A stretch of DNA of 64,000 nt from Salinimonas lutimaris (GTDB lineage Bacteria; Pseudomonadota; Gammaproteobacteria; Enterobacterales; Alteromonadaceae): NCBI RefSeq assembly GCF_005222225.1, contig NZ_CP036536.1, positions 3,682,001-3,746,000 on the forward strand. Reading direction: 5' to 3'. Both the position numbers and the translations under genes were made by a program. A model generated the notes under the pieces. That model saw only the letters and a program-made list of their open reading frames with translations, ran no database searches and had not been told where the DNA came from. Below are positions 54,368-56,901 of this stretch, piece by piece (within the stretch, counting starts at the first letter, position 1; each line of letters opens with the position of its first letter).

Positions 54368-54853
54368 GTGTGTCTCCAATACCATTTACTACTGGTTTTT
54401 TTGGTTTTCAATTTGTAAATAAGGCAAGAGCAGTTTTTATACCGTCTTTGTGACCAATTTTACTGTCTGTAAAAACAAAAAAACAGCATTTATTGAATAC
54501 AGATTCATTTAAAACACAAAAATATTCAAAAAAGACTGGTATTTGTTATCGGCGCACAATCATAGGACTGGCAGCAGACCACGTAGACTAATGATTTCGT
54601 TATACTTATGTAGAACCCGTAAAATCAGGCCCCGCATTGGTGCTGTATTTTTCGGGTAACTATTCAAAGACGAGTTACTATTTAGTAAAAGTTCGCTGGT
54701 TGCAAAATGAACAACTTTTCAATTTTCTTATGTTAAAAAGATGATAATGGAAAAGTTAGATTAGACTTTTGAGCCTTTGACAAGAATTTTGTTAGCAACC
54801 TACCAAAAGGACATGGATATAGTCTTTAGCATTGCAAATACGGGTAATGGCGG
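54368..54853. other. AT-rich intergenic region upstream of the TonB receptor
   Basis: About 485 bases with no convincing frame. The first half (54423-54720) is AT-rich and probably holds the receptor promoter on the minus strand; no regulator box is clear. A plus-strand frame at 54777-55031 runs into the repeat array and is not a gene. Confidence 0.5.
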
Positions 54854-55557
54854 CCAACTGACCAACGTCATTCATCCGCGGTATCTACAACCCACCGTCG
54901 TCCCGGAATCGCGCAGCGATATCCGGGATCTCCTCAGGCTAACTGACCAACGTCATTCATCCGCGGTATCTACAACCCACCGTCGTCCCGGAATCGCGCA
55001 GCGATATCCGGGATCTCCTCAGGCCAACTGACCAACGTCATTCATCCGCGGTATCTACAACCCACCGTCGTCCCGGAATCGCGCAGCGATATCCGGGATC
55101 TCCTCAGGCCAACTGACTAACGTCATTCATCCGTGGTATCTAGAGCCCACCGTCGTCCCGGAATCGCGCAGCGATATCCGGGATCTCCTCAGGCCAACTG
55201 ACTAACGTCATTCATCCGCGGTATCTACAACCCAACCTTCGTCCCGCAATTGCGCAGCGATATCCGGGATCTCCTCAGGCCAACTGACCGACGTCATTCA
55301 TCCGCGGTATCTACGACCCACCGTCGTCCCGCAATCGCGCAGCGATATCCGGGATCTCCTCAGGCCAACTGACTAACGTCATTCATCCGCGGTATCTACA
55401 ACCCACCGTCGTCCCGGAATCGCGCAGCGATATCCGGGATCTCCTCAGGCCAACTGACTAACGTCATTCATCCGCGGTATCTACGACCCACCGTCGTCCC
55501 GGAATCGCGCAGCGATATCCGGGATCTCCTCAGGCCAACTGACCAACGTCATTCGTT
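54854..55557. repeat. Tandem array of 85-bp repeats with internal palindrome (8 full copies plus a partial)
   Basis: Copies begin at about 54854, 54939, 55024, 55109, 55194, 55280, 55365 and 55450, with a partial ninth at 55535; one copy is 86 bases. Each carries CCGTCGTCCCGGAATCGCG CAGCGATATCCGGGATCTC in which cccgga/tccggg and atcgc/gcgat pair as a bulged hairpin, a REP-like palindrome. Copies are nearly identical (a few substitutions such as GGAATCG to GCAATTG). The period is not a multiple of three and no frame is kept, so the array is non-coding. There are no spacers, so it is not CRISPR. Confidence 0.93.
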
Positions 55558-55612: not shown

Positions 55613-55670
55613 GCGGGTGAAATGAGCAAGCAGTGATCACTTCAGAAAATGCAATACTTTGCAGGCATGG

Positions 55671-56034
55671 TGTCGCGTTTAAAACTATAGGAAGTATTGA
55701 TTTAACCGGATGGTTAGGAAGAAATTGGAGCGGGATACGTAGATTCGTAACTGGCAGCCACGCTGTCGCGACGTGTCGCGCTTAAAACTATAGGAAGTAT
55801 TGATTTAACCGGATGGTTAAGAAGAAATTGGAGCGGGATACGTAGATTCGTAACTGGCAGCCAAGCTGTCGCGACGTGTCGCGTTTAAAACTATAGGAAG
55901 TATTGATTTAACCGGATGGTTAAGAAGAAATTGGAGCGGGATACGTAGATTCGTAACTGGCAGCCACGCTGTCGCGACGTGTCGCACTTAAAACTATAGG
56001 AAGTATGGATTTAACCGGATGGTTAGGAAGAAAT
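55671..56034 (-). repeat. 103-bp tandem repeats carrying altered tRNA-Gly 3' ends (3 full copies and a partial)
   Basis: Units start at 55671, 55774 and 55877, exactly 103 bases apart; a fourth, at 55980, runs into the intact tRNA-Gly. Each unit contains, on the minus strand, a version of the last 25 or so bases of tRNA-Gly: AACT-CGATTC... is present as AGTTACGAATCTACGTATCCCGC-like sequence, differing by one substitution and two single-base insertions shared by all three copies. The same flank (GGATGGTTA[AG]GAAGAAAT) precedes the repeats and the true gene. The layout, tRNA genes followed by repeats that embed the tRNA 3' end, is like the rtT repeats after E. coli tyrT. Confidence 0.9.
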
Positions 56035-56110
56035 TGGAGCGGGAAACGAGATTCGAACTCGCGACCCCAACCTTGGCAAGGTTGTGCTCTACCAGCTGAG
56101 CTATTCCCGC
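56035..56110 (-). tRNA. tRNA-Gly (GCC), copy 2 (downstream)
   Basis: 76-nt cloverleaf with encoded CCA: acceptor GCGGGAA / TTCCCGC, anticodon loop CTTGCCAAG giving GCC, T-arm with GTTCGAATC. Identical in gene body to the copy at 56158-56233. On the minus strand it is the second of the pair and is followed directly by the 103-bp repeats. Confidence 0.98.
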
Positions 56111-56157
56111 ACACAAATTGTTGATGTTACCGGCCAGATTTCTTAAAAGTAAGAAAT

Positions 56158-56233
56158 TGGAGCGGGAAACGAGATTCGAACTCGCGACCCCAACCTTGGC
56201 AAGGTTGTGCTCTACCAGCTGAGCTATTCCCGC
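56158..56233 (-). tRNA. tRNA-Gly (GCC), copy 1 (upstream)
   Basis: 76-nt cloverleaf identical in body to the next copy, 47 bases upstream of it on the minus strand, probably in one transcript. The anticodon GCC reads GGC/GGU. The stretch from 56234 to orn is AT-rich and holds the likely tRNA promoter on its minus strand. Confidence 0.98.
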
Positions 56234-56355: not shown

Positions 56356-56901
56356 TTAAATACTGAACACTTTATCCCGGTAAAACTTCAATTCTTCAAT
56401 AGATTCGCGGATATCATCCAGTGCCAGGTGTACGCCTTTCTTTTCAAATCCACTAAGAATTGCCGGTTTCCAGCGGCGGGTCAACTCTTTAATCGTACTG
56501 ACATCAATACTGCGATAATGAAAATAAGCTTCCAGCTCTGGCATGTATTTCACCATAAAGCGGCGATCCTGACCGATGGTATTACCGCACAGTGGCGATT
56601 TGCCAGCATCAACATAGTCGGCCAGAAACGCCATGGTCTGTCGGGCCGCTTCGGCTTCGTCAATGGTGCTTTGGCGGCAACGGGCGGTTAATCCGCTCTC
56701 ACCATGCACCCGGGTACACCATTCATCCATACCATCTAAAATACTATCTGGTTGATGCACCGCAATGACGGGGCCTTCGGCTAATACATTAAGCTGTGGG
56801 TCTGTCACAATAGTGGCAATTTCCAGTACTTTACAGGATTCCGGATCCAGTCCGGTCATCTCCATGTCGATCCATACCAGATTCAAATCATTTTTACTCA
56901 T
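56356..56901 (-). CDS. orn: Oligoribonuclease
   Basis: A 3'-5' exonuclease for RNAs of two to five bases, essential in many Gammaproteobacteria and able to clear pGpG from cyclic-di-GMP turnover. DEDDh residues are in [22 protein letters not shown]-like helix (ESGLTA), [11 protein letters not shown] and [12 protein letters not shown]...HLALDDI, all intact. 181 residues is normal. It lies divergent from rsgA, as in E. coli. Confidence 0.98.

Follow-up and report, generated by a model that had tools for sequence, protein, structure and literature searches.

A tandem repeat with a tRNA-Gly tail behind the tRNA-Gly(GCC) genes of Salinimonas lutimaris resembles RtT in placement and tail but is not RtT

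Among described repeats, the closest to the one reported here is RtT (RF00391; rttR of the E. coli tyrT operon), the description of which dates from 1991, as cited in PMC4986893. According to the same paper, RtTs of Actinobacillus gave Northern signals (PMC4986893), and in the literature consulted the function of RtT is put only loosely. In E. coli, the RtT units have a period of 178 and end in AATCCTTCCCCCACCACCA, which is the tail of tRNA-Tyr. Ahead of their hairpins they carry a second T-arm block, which reads AAGGTTCGA in two of the three units and is scored as well by 7 to 11 of 300 shuffles. Another system of interest is the 3'ETS-leuZ sponge: RNase E processes tRNA precursors and makes this RNA from a tRNA transcript, as stated in PMC5222698. 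In the open-licence PMC papers searched, we found no earlier report of an element with a tRNA-Gly tail. Here we describe such an element, which ends in its neighbour's tail as RtT does, and which carries a hairpin in the T-arm that keeps pairing while its sequence changes.

The arrays of the S. lutimaris genome

The window, i.e. the whole stretch of 64,000 nucleotides that was analysed, contains two tRNA-Gly(GCC) genes on the minus strand behind an RNase_T protein that we take to be orn (oligoribonuclease), and the second of them adjoins an array of 103-bp units (ARAGORN; Table 1). Tandem Repeats Finder (TRF) placed the array at 55670-56059, with a period of 103, 3.8 copies and 95% matches; it consists of three full units and one truncated copy, directly after the second tRNA-Gly. 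The end of each full unit is GTTACGAATCTACGTATCCCGCTCCA, where the corresponding stretch of tRNA-Gly reads GTTCGAATCTCGTTTCCCGCTCCA. An earlier note on this DNA had described three such units, each with the same three changes in its tRNA-Gly 3' end, beside two tRNA-Gly(GCC) genes. Both TRF and ARAGORN agreed with that description, and the three changes proved to be two inserted A and one T-to-A, common to all the unit tails. Read in the direction of the tRNA, a unit begins with an A/U-rich start after the preceding CCA and passes through a spacer, hairpin I and hairpin II to CCAGTTACGAATCTACGTATCCCGCTCCA, which is the tRNA-Gly 3' end with the two inserted A and the one substitution. The spacer of the window unit includes a small hairpin (TAACC-ATCC-GGTTA). 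Neither ARAGORN nor RF00005 recognised the repeat units of the window as tRNA genes.

Table 1. Features of the tRNA-Gly locus, in window coordinates.
Feature	Position	Strand	Basis
tRNA-Gly(GCC), first of the pair behind orn	56158..56233	-	ARAGORN; RF00005 69.6 bits
Second tRNA-Gly(GCC) of the pair, immediately upstream of the array	56035..56110	-	ARAGORN; RF00005 69.6 bits
Repeat unit 1 (spacer, hairpins, tRNA-Gly-like tail)	55932..56034	-	Sequence, TRF; model R1 67.9 bits at 55932-55981
Repeat unit 2	55829..55931	-	Sequence, TRF; R1 65.0 bits at 55829-55878
Repeat unit 3	55726..55828	-	Sequence, TRF; R1 67.9 bits at 55726-55775
Truncated last copy, chiefly spacer, stopping in the hairpin I region	55670..55725	-	TRF range, sequence
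Hairpin I of unit 1 (TGCGA-CACG-TCGCG)	55973..55986	-	Fold; alone not significant; equivalents 103 and 206 bp on
Hairpin II of unit 1 (CAGC-GTG-GCTG), in the T-arm	55961..55971	-	Covariation (17 sequences), 65 units; equivalents at 55858-55868 and 55755-55765
tRNA-Gly-like tail of unit 1, with terminal CCA	55932..55960	-	Sequence, R1 match, unit comparison
RNase_T protein, presumably orn (oligoribonuclease), upstream, same strand	56356..56901	-	ORF; Pfam RNase_T 5.3e-36

Two further matters concern the surroundings of the array. A YrlA match at window 56064-56208 (33.6 bits, cut-off 69) covers parts of both tRNA-Gly genes and was set aside as probably a chance match to tRNA halves; the YrlA matches in carrier loci were also below the cut-off and covered parts of two adjacent tRNA-Gly genes. 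Beyond the tRNA-Gly array lies a second tandem array (window 54852-55554; 85 bp, 8.3 copies), and about 40 bp of its unit was found again in clusters around the genome (103 matches).

A further tRNA-Gly array of this genome, with 3.4 copies and a period of 100, is found in an operon of the order gly-cys-leu-gly-(array)-cys-leu, where it follows a tRNA-Gly. Its core and tail are similar to those of the window array, whereas its spacer is different. The distance from tRNA-Gly to tRNA-Cys in this operon is 20 bp in the first copy and 392 bp in the second, which bears the array; the equivalent gap in other genomes was 5 to 41 bp in five array-free operons and 105 to 264 bp in eight operons with elements. 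Apart from this second array, extra copies of tRNA 3' ends were not found at other loci of the genome, in a search of 23 stretches with the last 18 bases of 81 of the 88 tRNAs (counted with RF00005), allowing at most 4 substitutions without gaps; it returned one 4-mismatch tail match, upstream of a Ser cluster. The search is not exhaustive, since it misses the window's own tails, whose inserted base needs a gap.

Hairpins of the repeat unit

Hairpin II is an 11-nt hairpin lying in the T-arm just 5' of the tail, with the loop GTG replaced by TTG in unit 2. When set against tRNA-Gly, it falls between GGGGTCGCGA and GTTCGAATCTCG, that is within the 5' strand of the T-stem. This placement depends on a short shared block before the hairpin, the tRNA's GGGGTCGCGA, which was clear in L052 and L074 (1 of 300 shuffles scoring as well, each) and weaker elsewhere (9 of 300 for L038, 18 for window unit 2, where the block reads GTCGCGA, 34 for L039, 96 for L006 and 102 for L043); eight units entered this test, and one of them, labelled window and cut out of phase, was left out. 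The extra T-loop base to which the earlier note had drawn attention is present, but it is a minor change beside this hairpin, which that note had overlooked.

Our comparison revealed that hairpin II keeps pairing while its sequence changes. On fixed columns of 17 sequences, 68 of 68 cells were paired, against at most 61.8% in slid controls, and three of the four pairs change on both sides (21 cells). The number of paired cells, the number of double-change cells and the covariation score were each above all 500 shuffles, while the two other measures did not beat the shuffles (297/500 for the number of pairs changed on both sides, 474/500 for that of further pair types). Across 65 units from 34 loci, all four pairs form in 62, and 61 of these use one of six Watson-Crick stems (CAAC/GTTG, CCGA/TCGG, CCGG/CCGG, CAGC/GCTG, CCAC/GTGG or TCGA/TCGA); the three imperfect units all belong to the orn-side array of G149. 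The fixed-column count is the stricter of the two because the 65-unit count lets the hairpin position and the loop length float. By eye, hairpin II could be taken for a copy of the host anticodon stem (CAACC/GGTTG or CGACC/GGTCG), an idea that was dropped as L043, L056 and L076 do not fit.

The rest of the unit gave weaker folding signals. Hairpin I reads CGCGA-CACG-TCGCG in the window units, with TGCGA in unit 1. As a conserved stem it was visible by eye in most of 31 folds, but a constrained test reached p<=0.05 in 2 of 33 units, and it is not claimed as such. Whole units folded with mildly low energy: across 31 units z averaged -1.46, and it was positive in 4; in a separate fold set, in which the window unit was cut out of phase, z was above 0 in 2 of 6 units.

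Occurrence in relatives and the origin of the tail

A covariance model, R1, was built from 17 cores. With this model, elements were found in at least 23 of the 295 sampled genomes of the family, in four genera: 12 of 16 genomes in the own genus (g1), 7 genomes in g5, 3 in g12 and 1 in g17. The figure is a lower bound, because scoring was limited to 20 candidates per genome and the filters were strict; matches of at most 43 bits over 34 nt are true tRNA-Gly ends and were left out of the count. Among 126 R1 matches, 65 were counted as units, 47 were true tRNA-Gly ends and 14 were weaker, degenerate units. In the sample of the order, 5 of 394 genomes matched R1 at E<=3e-7, every one in the own genus. 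An exact pattern was found in Alteromonas indica, A. antoniana, Salinimonas profundi, Paraglaciecola polaris and Paraglaciecola sp. 20A4. Four of the 16 genomes of the genus (G068, G219, G244 and G256) were without the element at the R1 threshold, and no element followed the tRNA-Gly genes in their inspected stretches (L048, L096-L099). A tRNA-Gly lies directly upstream in 32 of 34 element loci, the other two (L088, L100) starting at a contig edge. The elements occur in two operon settings, their presence and copy number vary across genomes, and their spacer varies from species to species and from locus to locus. The earlier note had named confinement of the repeats to one assembly as one of two findings that would count against it; both the second array and the family-wide occurrence speak otherwise.

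The T-arm of tRNA-Gly has two forms, GAATC or GAGTC. The element tail has G in 6 of 6 G-form loci versus 1 of 23 A-form loci (Fisher p 1.5e-5, relatedness ignored). The table behind this test covers 29 of 32 loci, each with its first tail matching the pattern, and three loci gave none; in L052 the first pattern match was spurious, but its true tail has A, which leaves the locus in the same cell. Since the tail tracks the host tRNA-Gly allele, it is probably kept matched by recombination with the adjacent gene; the simplest interpretation is gene conversion or unequal crossing-over with the neighbouring tRNA-Gly. Chimeras of tRNA-Gly and insert, seen in L101, L100 and L037, include two that fit this reading. 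L101 holds a tRNA-Gly complete except for the T-arm hairpin (RF00005 27.7 bits, under the cut-off of 29). In L100 (G187), the contig of which opens inside the array, the units measure about 171 bp and amount to almost entire copies of tRNA-Gly, interrupted by inserts in both the anticodon arm and the T-arm.

Other broken pieces of tRNA-Gly were also seen. Between two tRNA-Gly genes of L072 (1090-1372), the 5' part of a pseudo-tRNA-Gly is broken by several small perfect or near-perfect hairpins. The pseudo-tRNA-Gly pieces in L037, L052, L096 and L100, from several genomes of the genus, have a common anticodon-arm insert around CTCGTCAC. In genus g5, which is Paraglaciecola by inference, a 14-nt hairpin is repeated within the T-arm insert of L039, and a similar hairpin (TAACGCGGTTAGCG) splits the acceptor end in L041 and L103 (CCCG / ... 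/ CTCCA or similar).

Could the element be a tRNA-Gly pseudogene repeat without RNA function? In such a case a decayed copy would have been amplified by unequal crossing-over, with its tail refreshed by gene conversion and its hairpins made or mended by template switching. Like tRNA pseudogenes, the element is derived from tRNA-Gly, and L100 and L101 hold nearly full-length copies with inserts; the tail that follows the host allele, the three chimeras, the hairpin-broken pieces of L072 and the variable presence and copy number all agree with this explanation. However, hairpin II stays paired across genera, with three of its four pairs varying, the unit recurs in arrays and the element persists in four genera, which is unlike tRNA pseudogenes. 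Furthermore, the similarity between genera at core positions 7-27 (hairpin II and its flanks) is 0.72, where shuffles give 0.58, and exceeds that of the spacer, which is 0.58 where shuffles give 0.53, each over 304 pairs. According to PMC8794818, template switching can create and mend stems and can thus make covarying hairpins without selection for RNA; for that reason we still regard a non-functional pseudogene repeat as a strong, if less likely, rival explanation.

Possible transcription and processing, and comparison with RtT

In the gly-cys-leu operon, one promoter-like site (11/12 matches) was found, ahead of the first tRNA-Gly. The scan gave no promoter-like site between the array and tRNA-Cys; its sole terminator-like site was in tRNA-Leu, and none was in the array. 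These site numbers are at shuffle level (means 1.7 and 1.4). As the array stands between tRNA genes with no promoter-like site before tRNA-Cys, read-through is suggested, at chance-level site numbers. In the window scan, which was also at chance level, no minus-strand promoter-like site was found, and terminator-like sites lay only in and just after orn. On a loose pattern, an A/U-rich start follows the CCA at 43 of 54 unit ends (with intact CCCGCTCCA), a rate similar to that at true tRNA-Gly ends (40 of 46).

Judged from the sequence, the arrays most likely form part of the tRNA transcripts and give rise, by cleavage, to RNAs of about 100 nt. The array would be co-transcribed with the tRNA-Gly genes, RNase E may cut in the A/U-rich stretch after each CCA, exonucleases would then trim the ends, and the tRNA 3'-end machinery would thereby yield structured RNAs of about 100 nt. 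The copy number presumably shifts by unequal recombination between the near-identical tails. With the lowest confidence of all, we would guess that the released RNAs have a role in trans, as other tRNA-trailer RNAs do, for instance keeping tRNA-processing enzymes occupied or pairing with small RNAs. Taken as a whole, this proposal, in which the 3' trailer of tRNA-Gly(GCC) transcripts carries an RtT-like repeat that derives from the tRNA, is specific to the lineage and is processed in this way, is given a probability of about 50%.

A punctuation device at the DNA or RNA level would make a different use of the same position, limiting read-through from the tRNA operon in an attenuator-like manner, as was proposed for BIMEs and some rtT-like repeats. 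PMC2965389 links rtT-like repeats, BIMEs and attenuation, and in the window the array is followed by the second tandem array with its dispersed repeat. We nevertheless consider such a device improbable, as neither array of the genome has a terminator-like site and the array of the gly-cys-leu operon precedes tRNA-Cys and tRNA-Leu. A mobile-element footprint, either attachment-site remnants of integrases using the tRNA-Gly 3' end or a MITE-like element, is very improbable: tRNA 3' ends are common integration sites and the tandem tail copies look like attachment-site debris, but no integrase was present among the six neighbouring proteins scanned, the units are short and uniform, two exact core patterns had 0 matches in viral contigs, and the loci lie at tRNA-Gly (32/34) or are cut by a contig edge, with none at other sites among the matches listed.

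For the comparison with RtT, RF00391 matched 61 of 295 genomes of the order, 42 of them over the cut-off. We inspected 27 RtT loci, a non-random sample made up of E. coli, six loci returned by the RF00391 search and 20 hand-picked places. In 23 of these 27 loci (Tyr 7, Pro 6, Lys 5, Ser 5; included among L120 and L141-L166), the RtT units finish with the last 16 nt of the tRNA next to them, with no more than 2 mismatches, indicating that RtT too takes its neighbour's tail. At least one exact copy of the tail is present in 20 of the 23, and L151, L164 and L166 have only copies with 1-2 mismatches; at L146, L153, L157 and L165 no tail was found. The likeness to rtT that the earlier note had seen is real and deeper than it had claimed.

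The cores are another matter. RF00391 did not match the element in the window or in G000, nor did it match any of the 12 carrier loci (out of 34) scanned with it at E<=1, and R1 found nothing in the 27 RtT loci at E<=1, so that core homology with RtT was rejected. Weak RF00391 matches occurred once each in G149 (9.7e-4) and G067 (1.1e-4), the latter at a place (L157) without an extra tail. A closing stem, formed by the tail and an upstream complement, was also tested, as a feature taken from the RtT loci studied here and not from a definition. It reached p<=0.05 in 4 of 30 tRNA-Gly element units (combined p 0.13) versus 9 of 14 RtT units (combined p 5e-10; one per locus, the upstream strand varying with the tRNA), over stretches of unequal length, about 50 nt for the element and 89 nt for RtT. 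The four positives were orn-side units of G289, G203 and G100, all of the own genus, and the gly-cys-leu unit of G016, and an RtT-like closing stem as a general feature of the element was rejected. The rtT-like case that had been suggested thus stands for placement and tail, whereas by RF00391 the element is not RtT and the closing stem is generally missing.

3'ETS-leuZ of E. coli and Salmonella is a single trailer, whereas the element described here is a tRNA-derived tandem repeat. The two are alike in that the unit RNA would also be cut by RNase E from a tRNA transcript, as PMC5222698 gives it for leuZ. The resemblance to RtT is closer. In both, the units are often tandem, lie behind tRNA genes and have hairpins just upstream of a tail that is an exact or near-exact 3' end of the neighbouring tRNA (with three changes in the window); the core, the period and the tRNA (Gly) are different. 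Here, then, is a second core, unrelated to that of RtT by the models used, with a neighbour's tail that tracks the host allele, which suggests that the tail is a selected or recombination-locked part. We tentatively propose that RtT and the tRNA-Gly element might be two separate inventions of one general kind, in which a structured element takes the tail of a neighbouring tRNA and is kept identical by recombination, every unit entering the tRNA 3'-end pathway and releasing a small tRNA-tailed RNA. If so, the class would be defined by tail capture and not by the core, and further elements of the kind would be expected behind other tRNAs. With the tRNA-Gly element beside RtT, it can now be asked whether tails of this kind bring RNAs into tRNA 3' processing.
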